A stretch of 64,000 nucleotides of DNA from contig JAUZSP010000001.1 of the NCBI GenBank assembly GCA_030949385.1, positions 62,001-126,000 on the forward strand, in the 5' to 3' direction. The stretch comes from Gammaproteobacteria bacterium (GTDB lineage Bacteria > Pseudomonadota > Gammaproteobacteria > JAUZRS01). Numbering within the stretch: position 1 is the first letter of the stretch; every line of letters starts with the position of its first letter. The notes under the pieces are model-generated. The model was not told where the DNA came from. It did no database searches and worked only from the letters and a program-made list of their open reading frames with translations. Both the position numbers and the translations under genes were made by a program. Shown here piece by piece: positions 39,950-48,146 of the stretch.

Positions 39950-40579
39950 TCAGTGGGTGGTCACGCGCAATAAATGATCAACACAAGCGACCATTTTGCT
40001 GCGTTTGAACAGCAACTGCCAGCGACTGCCTCCGCACTGTCGCCACAACACGGCAGCCCGAATGCCCGCCAGCAGCAGGACTCGGATGCGGGCGGCGGTG
40101 TCGTTGTTTTGCAGGTGGTTGTTGTTGCCGTTGACCATGATGCGAGGGCGCAGGGTGCTGATGGTGTCGCCGTACAGCCCCGCCAGCCGTGCGATCATGT
40201 TTTCGTGCAGGGGGCCGAAATGCTCCAGCTGCTCCTGTGCCGCCTGAATGCCTCGTTGAATGCGGTTCAGCATTGCGGTGTCTTTGATCAGTTTGCGTTC
40301 TAGGTGCATCAAGGTCATGACGTAGCGGGTCAGATCCACATCCCGTTTGTCTTCTCCGCCTTGCAGTTGGTCGCGCAGCACGATCAGGCCGCCGCGTAGG
40401 GGAACCTGTCCGCCGTAAATGTCCTCTACGTCGCTGGCTTCCAGTTTAAACAAGCTTTGTAACAGTGGCTCAAAAGCGTCGTTGTCACCTTTGCCGTGGT
40501 AGGCGAAGGCTTTGACTTGATGGGTGGCTTGGAAGAGCGCGGCTAGGGCGATCATTTGATCTTCGAGGGTGTGGGACAT
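39950..40579 (-). CDS. hflD: High-frequency-lysogenization protein HflD homologue
   Basis: This 209-residue helical HflD-family protein is peripheral to the inner membrane; in E. coli it binds lambda CII. The family pattern is clear: QMIALAALFQATHQVKAFA, RGGLIVLRDQL, RYVMTLMHLERKL and a C-terminal RIRVLLLAGIRAAVLWRQCGG. In many gammaproteobacteria it follows mnmA. Here the region upstream of its start holds the cassette array instead, so the array may have entered between mnmA and hflD. Confidence 0.92.
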   Translation of the reverse strand: MSHTLEDQMIALAALFQATHQVKAFAYHGKGDNDAFEPLLQSLFKLEASDVEDIYGGQVPLRGGLIVLRDQLQGGEDKRDVDLTRYVMTLMHLERKLIKDTAMLNRIQRGIQAAQEQLEHFGPLHENMIARLAGLYGDTISTLRPRIMVNGNNNHLQNNDTAARIRVLLLAGIRAAVLWRQCGGSRWQLLFKRSKMVACVDHLLRVTTH

Positions 40580-40795: not shown

Positions 40796-40981
40796 TTCCT
40801 AACGGGTTTGATAAATGGCCTAAATGATTGGGGTTTGACTGATAACACGGCCTGTGGCCGTACTTTTTTTGCCAATATTGTGTTGGTTTTTATGTAAGTT
40901 GTTGGTTTTTAACGAGATAGAAAGACTTTAAGAATTGGCCGTGTTCACTAAATAAACGGCCACTGGCCGTTTATTACAGAG
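40796..40981 (+). other. Possible degenerate attC site at the left end of the array
   Basis: CCTAAC at 40797-40802 could be a left core box. TTTGATAAATGGCC just after it is an imperfect partner of GGCCGTTTATTACAGA just before the first 150-base element. Two strong hairpins built on GGCC lie between. No matching GTTAGG cassette start is seen upstream. The 40580-40980 gap otherwise holds no gene. Confidence 0.3.
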
Positions 40982-41130
40982 ATGCAGCAGGCGCTCCGCG
41001 CCTACTGCATCGGTTCTGCGGATGTCCATCCCCTTGCTGGCCGACGCTGCGCGCAGTCCATCAAGCGCCTGAACCGGACGAGCCTTATGAAAATAAATTT
41101 TCAACGGCGCGCCGGTTATCCGCAGAACCG
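40981..41130 (+). repeat. 150-base ORF-less cassette element, copy 1
   Basis: This is the first of three near-identical copies (others at 41946 and 44771). It opens with a hairpin in which GATGCAG pairs with CTGCATC and AGGCGC with GCGCCT. It then carries CTGCATCGGTTCTGCGGAT and ends ATCCGCAGAACCG. If the element closed on itself, the end plus the start would read ATCCGCAGAACCGATGCAG, the exact reverse complement of that internal 19-mer. It has no reading frame. Its right edge is the first base of a canonical GTTAGGT core. Confidence 0.75.
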
Positions 41131-41198
41131 TTAGGTGCTCAATATGCCCAGCGTCTAACTTGTTTTACTTTTTAGGGTGAAAAACTCGGAGAAATGTC

Positions 41199-41447
41199 AT
41201 GAGTGATGAAAATGATGGAATTAAAGCAGCAGGAGCTGGTGCAGCAACAGGAGCAGCTGGATCTGTTGCCGCAGTTTCCAGTGCGGGTGTGGTAACTGGT
41301 TTGGGAGCTACGGGTATAACCTCTGGGCTTTCAGCTATTGGAGCTGTAGCTGGTGGAGGTATGGCTACTGGACTTGCTATTACCGCAGCCGCACCTTTGG
41401 CAGTAGGTGCTATTGGTTATGGATTGTATAAGTGGTTAAAAGACTAA
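41199..41447 (+). CDS. Small glycine-zipper membrane protein, cassette A
   Basis: This 82-residue protein belongs to no family I recognise. After a short acidic N-terminus almost the whole chain is Gly/Ala-rich and hydrophobic, with small-residue spacing typical of glycine zippers. It ends in YGLYKWLKD. This composition resembles membrane-inserting or pore-forming peptides such as bacteriocin precursors and holin-like proteins. GGAG lies a few bases before the ATG. It is the first gene of the cassette and probably pairs with the next gene. Confidence 0.6.
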   Translation: MSDENDGIKAAGAGAATGAAGSVAAVSSAGVVTGLGATGITSGLSAIGAVAGGGMATGLAITAAAPLAVGAIGYGLYKWLKD

Positions 41448-41518
41448 ATTCTATTTAGTAATAAAGCCAACTATCGTTGGTTTAATTTTTGAATTCAGGT
41501 TTTAAAAATTAGGATATT

Positions 41519-41851
41519 ATGAAGATTAATTATGACGACTTAGAAGATAAACAACTTGCGGAATTAATAAAAGGAGAAAAAACATTCGAGCTTATAGGAC
41601 TAAGCGGAAGAATAAGTGATGCAGTTTTAGTTGTTGAAACTGCAATAGAGATTCAGGGTTTTAGTTGTCGTATATACACTTATGGAAGAGTTGCTGCCTC
41701 TGGAGGCACCTTATTCGGTGGAATAACAGGAGTGCTTGGGTTGGCATCAGTTGTAGGTATAGCTGCTCACAACTTGGCTACATTAAATCCAGATTATGAA
41801 ATTTCAAAGCACCTTGTAGATAATTCGATATTAATAAAATACTGCAAATAG
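41519..41851 (+). CDS. Small protein with C-terminal membrane segment, cassette A
   Basis: This 110-residue protein is not recognised. The first 60 residues are soluble and acidic (DYDDLEDKQL-like start), followed by YTYGRVAASGGTLFGGITGV and a hydrophobic stretch to about residue 90 (LGLASVVGIAAHNLATLNPD), then a short charged tail. The Gly-rich membrane segment is similar in character to that of the upstream protein. The stop lies immediately before the attC of the cassette. Confidence 0.6.
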   Translation: MKINYDDLEDKQLAELIKGEKTFELIGLSGRISDAVLVVETAIEIQGFSCRIYTYGRVAASGGTLFGGITGVLGLASVVGIAAHNLATLNPDYEISKHLVDNSILIKYCK

Positions 41852-41852
41852 C

Positions 41853-41946
41853 ACCTAACAAAAAAATCCAGCGGACAGCTTAAAGCGTCACGGTTTTTGC
41901 TATTCGCAAAAAGCCGCGCCACTTTAATCTGCCGCTGATTTTGGCG
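41853..41946 (+). other. attC recombination site of cassette A
   Basis: The left box ACCTAAC (41853-41859) is followed by an imperfect 94-base palindrome. ATCCAGCGG pairs with CCGCTGAT with one extrahelical C, and TTTTTGC pairs with GCAAAAA in the centre. The site ends ...TTTTGGCG. These are the structural marks of an integron attC site, including the unpaired base that sets strand choice. Confidence 0.75.
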
Positions 41947-42095
41947 ATGCAGCAGGCGCTCCGCGCCTACTGCATCGGTTCTGCGGATGTCCATCCCCTT
42001 GCTGGCCGTCGCTGCGCGCAGTCCATCAAGCGCCTGAACCGGACGAACCTTATGAAAATAAATTTTCAACGGAGCGCTGGTTATCCGCAGAACCG
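41946..42095 (+). repeat. 150-base ORF-less cassette element, copy 2
   Basis: It is 150 bases, differing from copy 1 at only a few positions. It lies exactly between the last G of the cassette A attC and the TTAGGGC start of cassette B, so both edges coincide with integron crossover points. Confidence 0.75.
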
Positions 42096-42183
42096 TTAGG
42101 GCTCTCAAATAAATTCATCGAGATCTGCAAGTTGAATAATGAGATAATTCATATAATTTCTGAGAAGCAGTTAAGGTATTAAA

Positions 42184-43146
42184 GTGGCAGTAAATAGAAA
42201 CAAAGTAGATTTATGGAAGGCTGACGTTGCTAAGTCAGTTGATTTTTATAATAAATGGTTTATGACATTCGCTCCAAAAGCATTTAGGGATACTCGCATT
42301 GAGACCACCAAACAAGTGGAAGAAGCCCTTACTTGGACTGAAAACTTGACGAATATACTTCCTGAAACGCTTATAAGTCATCCTTCAGTTTTGTCAATGC
42401 TCAGAATGACGACTTGCCCACCCATTGCTCGAGATCGCCTAATAGGGCTTGCTGGTGTAACCCCTAATTTAGTGAAAAGCATGGAGAAAGACGCTCGTGT
42501 TCCTCCAAAGATGAAGCAGCCTAAACTAATTACAGAACTTAAAATGATCGGTGTGATTATTGAGAAAATGGCAGACCCTGATATATTTGTCTGGAAAGAT
42601 CGTGGGGATAAGGGTTCTAAAGAAGAAGTTCGTCGTGCATCAACTATCGTTGCTGATCGGCTATGCGGTGCTGTCGCTGACCCAATTATTCGTAATGCTC
42701 AAGAACAACGGCAACTTGCGGCCATGAAGGTATGGTTTGAAGCCCGTGGGTATCGTGAGCTTAAATCAGGTGAAGCTGAAGATTGGCTTTCTATGCCTAA
42801 CGGCACTTTTTCATTTCGGTTCAATGTGCAAGTGAATCAAGGCGACGAAGGTAAGCAGGTTAATATCCCAGTTGATGCTGTAATCATGCGTAAGGACGCA
42901 AAGAAAGGTGATTTCCCAGCATTGTTTGAAGCAAAGTCTGCTGGCGATTTTACCAACACAAACAAACGCCGTAAAGAAGAAGCCATCAAAATTCAACAAC
43001 TTCGCCACACATACGGCGAAAAAGTCACTTTTGACCTGTTTTTATGTGGTTATTTTGATTCTGGTTACCTTGGCTATGAAGCGGCTGAAGGTATTGACTG
43101 GGTTTGGGAACACCGTATTGACGATTTAGCACGGTTTGGATTTTAA
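42184..43146 (+). CDS. XamI-like type II restriction endonuclease
   Basis: This 320-residue protein with a GTG start resembles the XamI family of type II endonucleases, known to cut GTCGAC. It has the N-terminal KVDLWKADVAKSVDFYNKWF and FAPKAFRDTRIETTKQVE, the helical CPPIARDRLIGLAG, and a PD-(D/E)XK-like core PVDAVIMRKDAKKGDFPALFEAKSAGDF near residues 222-250. The methyltransferase follows two bases later, which supports an R-M pair. Recognition specificity is inferred from family only. The A+T-rich base use differs from the flanking core genes, consistent with transfer. Confidence 0.75.
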   Translation: MAVNRNKVDLWKADVAKSVDFYNKWFMTFAPKAFRDTRIETTKQVEEALTWTENLTNILPETLISHPSVLSMLRMTTCPPIARDRLIGLAGVTPNLVKSMEKDARVPPKMKQPKLITELKMIGVIIEKMADPDIFVWKDRGDKGSKEEVRRASTIVADRLCGAVADPIIRNAQEQRQLAAMKVWFEARGYRELKSGEAEDWLSMPNGTFSFRFNVQVNQGDEGKQVNIPVDAVIMRKDAKKGDFPALFEAKSAGDFTNTNKRRKEEAIKIQQLRHTYGEKVTFDLFLCGYFDSGYLGYEAAEGIDWVWEHRIDDLARFGF

Positions 43147-43148
43147 AA

Positions 43149-44684
43149 ATGAAAGTTGATCAGCTTGAAAACCAGCGTCAGACGTTACAGGCGAAACTTG
43201 ACAGGCAAAAGACCCAAAAAGAACGTAATATCATGGGGCAATTTTCAACGCCTAATATGTTGGCAAATGATGTTTTAATCCATGCAAAAAATATTCTCCC
43301 TAAGCGTAGCAAAGTTCGTTTTCTTGATCCAGCGTTTGGTACAGGTTCATTTTACAGTGCGTTGAATAGCGTGTTCCCTGAATCCCGTATTGAAGCTGCG
43401 ACTGGATTTGAAATTGACGAACATTATGGACAACCAGCTTTAAAGCTATGGGAAGAAACTGACCTTAATTATCAACTTGCAGACTTCACAAAGCAACCAC
43501 CACCAAGTGAAGATGAAAAATATAATTTAATCATTTGTAATCCGCCTTATGTGCGCCACCATCATATAAACGGACAAAAAGAACGACTTCAAGCTAAAGC
43601 ACTTGAAGCTGCTAACATGAAGTTGTCTGGCTTGGCTGGTCTGTACTGCCACTTTTTGGCACTTGCACACCCGTGGATGAAGAAAAATGGTATCGCTGGG
43701 TGGCTAATACCAAGTGAATTCATGGATGTTAATTATGGTCAAGCTGTTAAAAACTACTTGTTGAATGAAGTAACTCTTTTTCAGATTCATCGGTTTGACC
43801 CTAGCGATGTTCAATTTGATGATGCTCTTGTTTCATCTGCTGTTGTTTGGTTTAAAAACAAAAAGCCTAGCAAAACTCATAAGGTAAAATTCACGTATGG
43901 CGGCACAATCGATAAACCAACACATGAAAAAGACGTTAGCCTTCCCGTGTTAGCAAAAGAAAAAAAATGGACGCGCTTTCCGCTTTCTAGCGAACGCAAA
44001 GAAAACAATGATCCAAGATTGAATGATTTCTTTTCGGTGAAGCGTGGTATTGCAACTGGTGACAATAAGTTTTTTGTGCTTACTCGCGAACAAATTAAAA
44101 ATCGGGGTCTCGCACTTGAACAATTTCGCCCTATCTTACCAAGTCCGCGCTACCTTAATGTGACTGAAGTTAAATCTGATGAAAACGGTTATCCAGAAAT
44201 TGAAAATCAATTGTTCGTTCTGGACTGCAAACTTCCACTTGATGAAGTAAAACGCAATTATCCTAAACTTTACGACTACCTTGAAAGCGGTGTTCAGTCA
44301 GGCGTATCTGAACGGTATTTGTGTAAAAATCGTAAGATTTGGTATTCACAAGAAAATCGCGCTGAAAGCCGCTTTTATTGCACGTATATAGGTCGTTCAG
44401 ATAAGGAAGGGAAAAAACCTTTCCGTTTTGTTCTGAATAGGTCAAAAGCGATTGTGGCTAATTCATATTTGATACTTTACCCCAAGCCCCATCTGGAAAA
44501 AGAAATTGAACTGAATCCAGACTTGAATGAACAGCTACTTGAAGCGTTGAACAAAATTACCGGTAAAGCCATGCTTGATGAAGGTCGCGTGTATGGTGGT
44601 GGAATGTATAAAATGGAACCAAAAGAACTGGCAAATGTTTCTGCTGTAGAAATCGGTGAATTGTTACATGCTGCCGTGCCCTAA
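43149..44684 (+). CDS. N6-adenine DNA methyltransferase of the cassette R-M system
   Basis: This 511-residue class I (gamma-type) adenine methyltransferase is related to the TaqI/Eco57I group. Motif X region MGQFSTPNMLANDVLIHAKN precedes motif I FLDPAFGTGSFYSAL near residue 58, and catalytic motif IV is NPPYVRHHH near 130. The target-recognition domain occupies roughly 270-480. It protects host sites from the neighbouring XamI-like nuclease. The stop lies inside the left box of the cassette's attC (GCCCTAAC). Confidence 0.85.
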   Translation: MKVDQLENQRQTLQAKLDRQKTQKERNIMGQFSTPNMLANDVLIHAKNILPKRSKVRFLDPAFGTGSFYSALNSVFPESRIEAATGFEIDEHYGQPALKLWEETDLNYQLADFTKQPPPSEDEKYNLIICNPPYVRHHHINGQKERLQAKALEAANMKLSGLAGLYCHFLALAHPWMKKNGIAGWLIPSEFMDVNYGQAVKNYLLNEVTLFQIHRFDPSDVQFDDALVSSAVVWFKNKKPSKTHKVKFTYGGTIDKPTHEKDVSLPVLAKEKKWTRFPLSSERKENNDPRLNDFFSVKRGIATGDNKFFVLTREQIKNRGLALEQFRPILPSPRYLNVTEVKSDENGYPEIENQLFVLDCKLPLDEVKRNYPKLYDYLESGVQSGVSERYLCKNRKIWYSQENRAESRFYCTYIGRSDKEGKKPFRFVLNRSKAIVANSYLILYPKPHLEKEIELNPDLNEQLLEALNKITGKAMLDEGRVYGGGMYKMEPKELANVSAVEIGELLHAAVP

Positions 44685-44771
44685 CAAGTTTGTCCAGCTG
44701 ATAGCCAAAAGTTTCACGCTTTTTGCTTTCGCAAAAAGACGCGCCACTTTTGTCTACAGCTGACAAAAGCG
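44679..44771 (+). other. attC recombination site of cassette B
   Basis: CCCTAAC is followed by a long imperfect palindrome. TTTGTCCAGCTG pairs with CAGCTGACAAA with one extrahelical C, CCAAAAGT pairs with ACTTTTGT, and CTTTTTGC pairs with GCAAAAAG at the tip. The site ends ...ACAAAAGCG. Confidence 0.75.
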
Positions 44772-44919
44772 ATGCAGCAGGCGCTCCGCGCCTACTGCAT
44801 CGGTTCTGCGGATGTCCATCCCCTTGCTGGCCGTCGCTGCGCGCAGTCCATCAGCGCCTGAACCGGACGAACCTTATGAAAATAAATTTTCAACGGAGCG
44901 CCGGTTATCCGCAGCACCG
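44771..44919 (+). repeat. 150-base ORF-less cassette element, copy 3
   Basis: It is 149 bases, with one base lost in the middle and GCAGCACCG instead of GCAGAACCG at the end. It follows the cassette B attC directly. The right edge reads GTCATATT, not GTTAGG, so this is where the recognisable array stops. Confidence 0.75.
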
Positions 44920-45039: not shown

Positions 45040-45354
45040 ATGGATAACTCAGAATATCTACAATGTATAGATGATATATTGAATAAAATTGATGAGACTC
45101 TAGAAGAGCTCGATTTGGATATTGAGCTTGAAATAAGTGACGGCAAGTTAGTCATTGTCTTTGATGATAATCAACAATATATTCTCAATAGCCAAAGTGT
45201 GAACCAACAACTTTGGTTGGCAGAGCCAGGTGGTGGTTGGCATTATGATTTTAAAGATGGTCAGTTTATCTGTGATAAACGTGGTCTGGACATTCTTAAG
45301 ACCCTTGAACTATTGATGTCTGAAAAACTCTCTCAGAAAATAGTGCTGAAATAG
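45040..45354 (+). CDS. cyaY: Frataxin-like iron donor CyaY
   Basis: This 104-residue bacterial frataxin is an iron-binding regulator of Fe-S cluster assembly. The N-terminal acidic helix (NSEYLQCIDDILNKIDETLE) and the sheet motifs KLVIVFDDNQQYILNSQ, QQLWLAEPGGGWHYDF and GQFICDKRG match CyaY. A strong GGGAGGA ribosome site precedes the ATG. It is a core gene, so it probably marks the chromosomal right flank of the cassette array and is not itself a cassette. Confidence 0.9.
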   Translation: MDNSEYLQCIDDILNKIDETLEELDLDIELEISDGKLVIVFDDNQQYILNSQSVNQQLWLAEPGGGWHYDFKDGQFICDKRGLDILKTLELLMSEKLSQKIVLK

Positions 45355-45756: not shown

Positions 45757-46829
45757 TGTAGTGTCCTGAATATACCGATCATTTGCCTAGTGCTGCTCTA
45801 GCACGACCCACTTTTTCCAGAATATGCTCAGCACTTTTAGTCCAGACAAAAGGTTTTGGTTCCTTATTATGATGATCAATAAATTGTCGAATCTTTTCCT
45901 CTAGGTCATTGACTGAAGTAAAAATACCACGCTTTAATTGTTTTTGCGTGAGCAACCCAAAAAACGTTCCACTAAATTAAGCCATGAGGAACTGGTTGGA
46001 ATAAAATGCAAAGCAACTCTCTTATTACGCGCTAACCATTTCCTTACCTTTTCGTGCTTATGAGTCCCATAATTATCAACAATGATATGCAAATCCAACT
46101 CTTGCTCCACTTGTTTCTCAACGGTTTTTAAAAATGACAAAAACTCTTGATGGCGGTGTCGTGACTTGCACTCTCCAATCACTTTTCCACTGGCAACATC
46201 TAATGCGGCAAATAAAGTACTGGTACCATGACGTTTATAATCATGAGTCATGGTTCCAGCCCGTCCCTTTTTCAGGGGTAAACCAGGTTGAGTACGATCT
46301 AATGCTTGTATAGAGGACTTTTCATCAACACAAAAAACCACCGCATTCTCAGGGGGCGATAAATAGAGACCCACAACATCAACCAATTTCTCTTCAAATT
46401 TTGGATCATTACTGACTTTAAAACCCTTTGTAAGATGGGGTTTCAGTCCACTCTCTTGCCATACACGATTCACAAAACTGTGCGTGGTTTTCAATACTTT
46501 AGCCAAGGTGCGTGTTGACCAGTGTGTCGCTCCCTCTGGTTTTAATTGTGTGGTCATACGAATAATCTCTGAACGTAATTTTGCTTGCTCCTCTGTTTTT
46601 TTCCTCCATGATTACCTCCACGAGGGCGTTCTTTTGCTATTCCAATATATCCAAATTTGGCATAACGATTTCTCCAACGGCCAACCGTATGAGCACCGAC
46701 ATCAAGATGTTTAGAAATTTCAATATTAGAAAAACCCTCTGCTGACAGGAGGATGATTTTTGATCGCTCTGCTAGCCGAACGGCTGTTTTTCGTCCTCGA
46801 ATATTCTTTTCAAGAGCGACTTTTTCTTC

Positions 46830-48146
46830 CAATACTTCGGACAGTTTTAGAGAGAAAAAGATAGGAACCACAGGCGGATTCTGAGAAAATAGAGTTCTCA
46901 AAAAACGACAATCAAAGAAGGCCGCCCGTGGAATCCATAGTAGAATCGGTTTTACTCTCCATGTCCAGTGTTAAAAAACCACAACGTCTTTTTCTCTCAG
47001 CTCTGTTTTCCGCATTGATGGTTTTTCAAGGGAAAGCCACTTTTCGTAATTTGAGTCGTTACAGTTCGTTGCATGAAAAACGTCTGTCGCGTTGGTTTCG
47101 ACGTTCATTTGATTTTGCACAATTCAACAGACGCCTACTTCAAAAAGAGCTGCCACAAAAGCACGATCAAATTGCCGCCATTGATGCCAGCTTTATGAAA
47201 AAAGTGGTCAGAAAACAGCAGGGTTGGGTTGGTTTTACAACGGCGCTTTGGGGCAAGCCATGGTGGGATTGGAGTTGTCGTTGGTTTGCCGAATTGATCT
47301 TCAAAGTCGAACCGCTTACGCGCTGGAGGCTCGCCAAACGTTGGACTCGGAACAGAAAGAGGGTGAGAGCCGAGTGGACTGCTACGCGAAACAGGTTTGT
47401 GACCTTGCCTGTGATCTTCAAGCGCAAGGCATTCGCTACCTTACCGCAGACGCCTACTACAGCAAGGTGAAGTTTGTCGATGCGGTCTGTTCAGATGACT
47501 TACACCTGATTGGAAAGCTGCGTTCAGATGCCAACCTAAGCTGGTATTTTGAGGGCGAATACGGTGGCAAAGGACGTCCTAAAACGTACGATGGTAAAGT
47601 CAATTTCCAAACGGAGCTGTCCCGTTTTGATGCGTGTGGCGTAATGGATAAGGGGGTATCGATTTACAGCGCCGTGGTTCACTCGTGTTGTTTCAAACGG
47701 AAAATCCGTGTGGTGCTGCTGCGATGGGAGCAGAAGACAAAAGTCCGTTCGGCTCTGCTGTTTTCTACGGATTCGGAGTTGGCTCCAGAAAAGATTGTCG
47801 AATATTACACCGCTCGTTTTCAGATTGAATTTTTGTTTCGTGAAGCCAAGCAACATACGGGTTTAATGGATTGCCAAGCGCGTTGCCCAGAGGCCATTCA
47901 AACTCATATTAATGCCTCGTTCACCGCACTGAATTTATTGAAGCTGGAAGACCGTAAGGACAAAAACAACCCTGAGCCTTCGGTGATTTCGATTGCCTCG
48001 TGGCGACGCAAGAAATTCAATCAATATTTGATGAAAATACTTTTTGACAAGTTAGGTTTGGAGAGATCTTGTCAAAAAGTCGAGGCGGTTTACCATGAGC
48101 TGAGTGAGTATGGGGCTATTCAGGTTTAAAACTGTCCGAAGTATTG
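46830..48146 (+). mobile_element. IS4-family insertion sequence nested in the IS630 element
   Basis: Perfect 20-base terminal inverted repeats (CAATACTTCGGACAGTTTTA) lie at 46830-46849 and 48127-48146. A six-base TTCTTC duplication flanks it (46824-46829 and 48147-48152). It lies within codons 12-14 of the IS630 transposase. Confidence 0.88.
46928..48129 (+). pseudogene. IS4-family transposase with one frameshift
   Basis: Two frames, 46928-47210 and about 47200-48129, read together as one DDE transposase of about 400 residues. The first has AIDASFMKK and the second GWFYNGALGQAMVGLELSLV. The IS4 YREK signature is present as YTARFQIEFLFREAKQHTG near the end. The break lies at an A6 run (47198-47203) that would need seven A. 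Whether this is decay, a sequencing error or slippage cannot be told here. Confidence 0.8.

Follow-up and report, generated by a model that had tools for sequence, protein, structure and literature searches.

A multicopy gene-less element at integron crossover points, probably a mini-cassette with an attC-like site of its own

What is the 150-bp segment that recurs, nearly unchanged, between the cassettes of an integron-type array, and how did it come to lie there? The array is part of a 64,000-nucleotide stretch of a gammaproteobacterial genome (contig JAUZSP010000001.1, positions 62,001 to 126,000; hereafter the window), in which the segment, hereafter the element, occurs three times. We consider it probable that the element is a multicopy, gene-less integron mini-cassette of 149 bp with its own attC in the right half and a core shifted from GTT/AAC to GAT/ATC. 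It is classed here as a variant working like a cassette without an open reading frame (ORF) and not as a canonical member of that group, since neither a TTRRRY start nor an integrase in the same genome was found.

The window belongs to a genome of 2.87 Mb that is 98% complete (G000), and a sister species of the same genus served for comparison (G001, a gammaproteobacterial metagenome-assembled genome from Arctic ridge vents, record JAUZRS01). The array runs from a DUF489 gene through a leader, copy 1, cassette 1 with its attC, copy 2, cassette 2 with its attC, and copy 3 to cyaY. Its parts are as follows, a caret marking the crossover point:

39950..40579, minus strand: DUF489 (HflD-like) gene, chromosomal left flank (Pfam PF04356, E 4.5e-75); same neighbour in the sister species
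40847..40980, plus strand: leader of type 1 (attI-like), with an intrinsic terminator at its start and the palindrome AATAAACGGCCACTGGCCGTTTATT inside, ending ACAGAG^
40981..41130, plus strand: element copy 1, its first G common to the leader; crossovers before 40982 and after 41130
41131..41946, plus strand: cassette 1, starting TTAGGTGC, with two small ORFs (41199-41447 and 41519-41851) and an attC, ending GGCG
41851-41859, plus strand: R'' of cassette 1, GCACCTAAC (sequence reading, attC model)
41946..42095, plus strand: element copy 2, its first G common to the attC of cassette 1
42096..44771, plus strand: cassette 2, endonuclease and methyltransferase, with an attC running to AGCG (attC model)
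44678-44685, plus strand: R'' of cassette 2, GCCCTAAC (sequence reading, attC model)
44771..44919, plus strand: element copy 3, one base shorter, after the last attC at the array end; right edge CCG^TCATATTC
45040..45354, plus strand: cyaY (frataxin-like), chromosomal right flank (Pfam PF01491 Frataxin_Cyay, E 4.6e-22)

Both attC sites of the window are canonical. Each R'' box (GCACCTAAC in cassette 1, GCCCTAAC in cassette 2) can pair with the R' of its own cassette, over 10 and 8 bases respectively, and this R' is located beyond the element. Because each R'' pairs with an R' found past the upstream element, the element splits the crossover exactly between G and TT. The unit measures 149 to 150 bp (ATGCAG...AACCG); its left edge follows a G in every full copy, and its right edge reads CCG^TTA except in copy 3 (CCG^TCA). 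The original prediction of three near-identical copies with edges exactly on integron crossover points thus holds, the repeat comparison and the reading of the junctions being in agreement. It had also placed an element before each cassette, which fails on two counts: copy 3 precedes the chromosomal cyaY, and some attC sites in arrays outside the window carry no element.

The genome of the window contains about 13 copies in five arrays, one of them truncated and one a relic. Specifically, there are three in the window, four in array C7, two in C3 (one truncated), two at the end of C1, and one plus the relic in C8; the sister species has four. All full copies share one orientation, that of the cassettes. 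Diverged partial relics of approximately 35 to 44 bp (89% identity) were seen at L043:4567-4601, L017:10251-10286, and L044:6542-6585, two at array ends and one outside any obvious array; they suggest that the element family is old.

Presence of the element is optional, and its copies behave as exchangeable units. The last cassette of array C7, a BrnT-like toxin-antitoxin pair, is common to the window's genome and the sister species. In the latter the junction reads ...GCGGCG^element^TTAGCTAC, whereas in the former the attC is joined directly (...AAAGCG^TTAGCTAC, the empty site AAAGCG^TTAGC). Directly before the empty site stands an attC with 95.5% identity to one that in the sister species is filled; with the cassette shared as well, each side of the junction is represented both with and without the element. 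Furthermore, copy 1, which follows a leader, is identical over all 150 bp to copy C7_2, which follows an attC on another contig, and their flanks are unrelated. Between two leaders 13 of 122 positions differ, but between the elements adjoining them only 1 of 150 (p 2e-4). Together, the identical copies and the greater divergence of the leaders mark both edges as exchange points, unless gene conversion acted over exactly that stretch. A unit consisting of element, gene, and attC, with the element as the 5' part of a cassette, is ruled out, since copy 3 stands before cyaY and the BrnT-like cassette also occurs without an element.

The type 1 leader, about 130 bp long and ending AGAG^, heads four further arrays of the window's genome (one leader being strongly diverged) and one of the sister species, and the element directly follows it in 6/6 arrays. 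Leaders of this type stand at dispersed loci (window 40847-40980; L015, L016, L017, L042) with 82-98% identity, the intrinsic terminator coming first, followed by the perfect palindrome AATAAACGGCCASTGGCCGTTTATT. Two C2 arrays are headed by another leader of 575 bp (type 2; C2:1-577, i.e., L101:1-577, and C2:41354-41929, i.e., L102:7355-7930), the two being 97% alike. This leader is the remnant of an integron platform in which an intI-type gene survives as a truncated 5' part and the attI ends CACTTG^TTAG; element-free cassettes follow each copy. Its protein resembles a segment just upstream of IntI in genome G033, whose attI end is similar (AACTTG^TTAGG). Two unrelated attI-like leader types occur within one genome that has no integrase.

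How, then, is the element built? When its ends are joined, the junction ATCCGCAGAACCG plus ATGCAG (ATCCGCAGAACCGATGCAG) is the perfect complement of an internal 19-mer. The perfect complementarity claimed originally is thereby borne out: none of 5000 shuffles (0/5000) reached 19 nt, the best giving 13 nt. This pairing is equivalent to two abutting stems over the whole unit, A (positions 1-31) and B (positions 32-149). In copy 1 the parts are:

40981..41011, plus strand: hairpin A, GATGCAG-C-AGGCGC-TCC-GCGCCT-A-CTGCATC, containing the left core GATGCAG (fold and pair counts)
41012..41023, plus strand: left arm of stem B, GGTTCTGCGGAT, with compensatory changes at 3/12 pairs relative to the copies in genome G048 (see below)
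41056..41062, plus strand: proposed R'' box GTCCATC of the element's own attC, invariant in full copies and in the same position as GGGCTAAC in copy G048_1
41072..41117, plus strand: putative L''...L' hairpin of the internal attC-like site, AACCGG-A-CG ... CG-CCGGTT, with the AT-rich tip CTTATGAAAATAAATTTTCAACG (from the fold; tip kept in the G048 copies)
41118..41129, plus strand: right arm of stem B, ATCCGCAGAACC, then G^TTAGG

Hence the body is more than the short hairpin first described: besides hairpin A there is the 12-bp stem B (positions 32-43 with 138-149), which encloses a second, attC-like hairpin. In this part the L stem is present and the R'' box is degenerate (GTCCATC); in a bottom-strand fold, GTCCATC pairs with GATGCAG through GATG/CATC. 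Of the core pair GATGCAG/CTGCATC named in the original prediction, which overlooked this internal attC-like site, the left member stands, but its partner is more likely the internal GTCCATC. As a guide to the folding strand, wobble pairs point in opposite directions, to the bottom strand in hairpin A and to the top in stem B. An IntI insertion at the AAC inside stem B was rejected on reading, as the edges would fall 3 nt off.

The strongest clue to the nature of the element came from outside the genus. A covariance model of the element was run over 369 genomes of the class and gave one match beyond the genus, on contig 11 of a genome of another family (G048). It is full-length, with E values of 3.4e-6 in the genome search and 2.7e-8 in the locus. 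A second copy of 77 bp (E 2.9e-5) follows a truncated lysE-like gene. Both lie downstream of an intact IntI on the same contig (TIGR02249, 405 bits, cut-off 265), in the order intI, attI, cassette 1, attC1, cassette 2, attC2, element unit, cassette 3 (TTATATTTC...). The first unit (G048_1) comprises about 118 bp (TTAATGGGACTGCGAAT...TTATCCGCAGTCCCG) and starts with TTAAT, near the TTRRRY rule. It shares with the window element the left part (CTGCGaATtgTcATCCaCTTG), the AT-rich tip (CTTATRAAAATAMATTTTYAAYG), and the right end. Its right part, GGGCTAAC-AA-GCGGATtAAACgGACAGTC...GACTGTCGCTTATCCGC-AGTCCC-G^TT, corresponds to a near-canonical R'', an L'' arm, an L', and the crossover, and the L stem has two extra-helical bases on the L'' arm. 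R'', L'', and extra-helical bases are features of attC sites (PMC2727003, PMC12901181), and with L' and the crossover also in place the G048 unit reads as a gene-less cassette. In G048 the arms of stem B have another sequence, but complementarity is preserved (T-A to G-C and T-A to A-T, with G-C to A-T in the short copy). Hairpin A is lacking there, and at the circle junction the arms are separated by GTTAAT or GTTAAC. The circle junction as an attC-like site thus survives in part: the ends do pair, and compensatory change has kept the outer 12-bp arms, but the GATGCAG/CTGCATC hairpin is probably not the attC, since the relative with IntI lacks it. A more fitting place for the attC is the right half, with GTCCATC as R'' in the window and GGGCTAAC in the relative.

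BLAST-level searches of the same 369 genomes found nothing outside the genus, so that G048 was reached by the structure model alone. No further copies were detected when 20 stretches from IntI-bearing genomes were scanned with the covariance model, and plasmid, phage, and viral collections held no homologue. A 21-bp match in another genome proved to be a chance match in the rpsB gene. Independent homologues are few, namely one genus and one further genome. Of the copies outside the window, G048_1 follows attC2, others follow leaders, and the short G048 copy sits beside the lysE-like gene.

From these findings a mechanism can be proposed. The right half would act as an attC-like site with the degenerate R'' GTCCATC, the L''/L' hairpin with its AT-rich tip, and CCG^, and the left edge G^ATGCAG would be the matching R'. 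The GTT of R' would have become GAT and the AAC of R'' ATC, with the GATG/CATC pairing kept in the bottom-strand fold of the circle. Stem B links both ends, and present copies additionally carry hairpin A at the left end. Most probably, like any other cassette, the circle entered the G^TT of attI-like leaders and attC sites through the action of an integron integrase, and always in a fixed orientation. The integrase has probably been lost since in both genomes, leaving the copies stranded or movable only in trans. Cassettes between identical sites are excised at >97% (PMC12901181), so tandem copies are expected to vanish fast, and this may account for the single element per site. We infer a circular intermediate moved by IntI with the right-half hairpin as substrate, and no function for the host. 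Among the three options of the original prediction, the minimal parasitic cassette is accordingly the best supported, given the many copies, their optional presence and single orientation, the identical copies in unrelated flanks, and the homologue in an IntI integron.

Several observations weigh against this proposal. A complete integron integrase was found in neither the window's genome nor the sister species, and only the truncated 5' intI-type fragment remains; the tyrosine recombinases present are XerC/XerD-like proteins and three phage-type integrases, not IntI. The unit start in the lineage of the window (G000/G001) is ATGCAG, not TTRRRY, the R'' departs from RYYYAAC, and the proposed R'/R'' boxes make 5/7 pairs. 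The short G048 copy adjoins the truncated lysE-like gene, not an attC. In arrays with leader type 1, 16 sites are filled and 5 empty, versus 0/6 filled elsewhere (p ~0.002), and an independent cassette would not need to be confined to such arrays. Finally, stem B is conserved though it is no part of a normal attC, so that the true substrate may be the junction palindrome; alternatively, stem B might fold the element out so that neighbouring sites still pair, and a bottom-strand fold of attC plus element does leave R'' and R' of the host attC paired.

The junction palindrome leads to an account that we regard as possible, though somewhat unlikely: a self-spreading family of mini-cassettes (77-150 bp, inverted repeat at both ends) whose integrase substrate is the circle-junction palindrome and not a classical attC. 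It would, if true, be a further kind of integron recombination site, colonising attI and attC crossovers and so pacing or locking arrays. The conserved 12-bp inverted repeat near both ends, the exact target, and the lack of coding capacity would also suit a non-autonomous transposon of the miniature inverted-repeat (MITE) type, targeting the R' crossover of attC and attI sites and moved by an unseen transposase. Insertion sequences (ISs) of the IS1111 type that target one attC end are known (PMC11187229). We hold this to be doubtful, since no IS110/IS1111 transposase (PF02371) occurs in the window's genome or the sister species, which removes that family as the mover. Moreover, in the G000 form the left end extends 31 bp beyond the repeat arm, there is no clear target duplication, attI-like leaders and attC sites are both used exactly at the IntI crossover, and the relative resides inside an IntI integron.

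The association with leader type 1 could instead mean that the element is a fixed part of this attI, copied behind attC sites via a secondary crossover (a Delta-attI-type cassette end) and then carried along with cassettes. The element opens all six leader-1 arrays and is missing from every leader-2 site, and class 1 and class 2 integrons are known to contain Delta-attI cassettes, one of which has 244 nt of attI2 (PMC12901181). No leader-1 platform with IntI is known. In such cassettes, however, the attC is replaced, whereas the attC in front is intact in most filled sites; the elements are less diverged than the adjoining leaders, a copy behind a leader is identical to one behind an attC, and the G048 homologue follows an attC, not an attI. 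We therefore judge this origin improbable. Least credible, and very unlikely in our view, is a regulatory device before cassette genes, be it a promoter, a structured RNA leader, or a leader peptide. In its favour, most cassette genes have the element on their 5' side, promoter activity is frequent among the gene-less cassettes of Vibrio (PMC11014356), and a 49-codon frame (window 40982-41130), whose ATG coincides with the left crossover and whose stop is often the TAG within R' of the following cassette, recalls ORF-11 in attI1 (PMC8876359). This frame qualifies the description of the element as ORF-less, but one copy shows a frameshift and one a stop, and the roughly 8 synonymous versus 14 non-synonymous changes read from the copy alignment give no visible constraint. 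No promoter-like site was found in the element, Rfam scans at loose thresholds returned nothing credible, and the 13 copies show no covariation. With copy 3 before a chromosomal gene, the structural device suggested originally is likewise weakened, and the exact crossover edges would be left unexplained.

Most cassettes read in these arrays carry defence-like genes (window 42184-44684; L015, L018, L042, L101), namely XamI-type and cytosine-methylase restriction-modification systems, DUF262-like proteins (PADLOC HEC-05), GTPase pairs, an AAA ATPase, and toxin-antitoxin pairs. Those of cassette 2 are:

42184-43146, plus strand: XamI-type restriction endonuclease (Pfam RE_XamI, E 4.5e-110; PADLOC)
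43149-44684, plus strand: DNA methyltransferase (Pfam Eco57I and N6_Mtase; PADLOC)

The element thus sits where phage-defence genes are exchanged. Downstream of cyaY (window 45934-48129) lie IS-like transposase ORFs: on the plus strand one that is IS4-like, on the minus strand a pair recognised by eye as IS630-like.

If the element is indeed a mini-cassette, integrons can host parasites made solely of recombination signals, and the compensated change from GTT/AAC to GAT/ATC would be a natural test of how much core drift is tolerated. Known gene-less cassettes are single units, some with promoter activity; here a non-coding cassette would have multiplied inside a single genome, in near alternation with gene cassettes. 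Among known systems, the ORF-less cassettes of Vibrio superintegrons (PMC11014356) and Treponema (PMC6557892) are likewise non-coding, crossover-bounded units in cassette orientation beside gene cassettes, and the G048 copy matches them in its TT start and attC-like 3' end. The element differs in its approximately 13 copies of one sequence, the inverted repeat at its ends, the GAT/ATC-type core, the extra hairpin A, and the lack of a detected promoter and of an integrase in its genomes. Delta-attI-type cassettes (PMC12901181) also place extra recombination-site DNA at cassette junctions, in units beside attI-like leaders, but there an attI piece replaces the attC, whereas the element follows an intact attC and has a homologue away from attI. 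The IS1111-attC elements ISKpn4 and ISPst6 (PMC11187229) resemble it in their repeated insertion at one fixed attC point in one orientation, while the element, at 149 bp, has no transposase and no IS110/IS1111 relative in its genomes and is also found at attI-like leaders. Group IIC-attC introns (PMC8876359, PMC7923331) are folded non-host elements associated with attC as well; the element lacks an Rfam group II match and a reverse transcriptase, and it lies at the R' crossover. The sRNA-Xcc1 cassettes of Xanthomonas (PMC12444791) are a further case of widespread non-coding content in integron cassettes; these occur with symE and in antisense orientation, and the element has no Rfam match.

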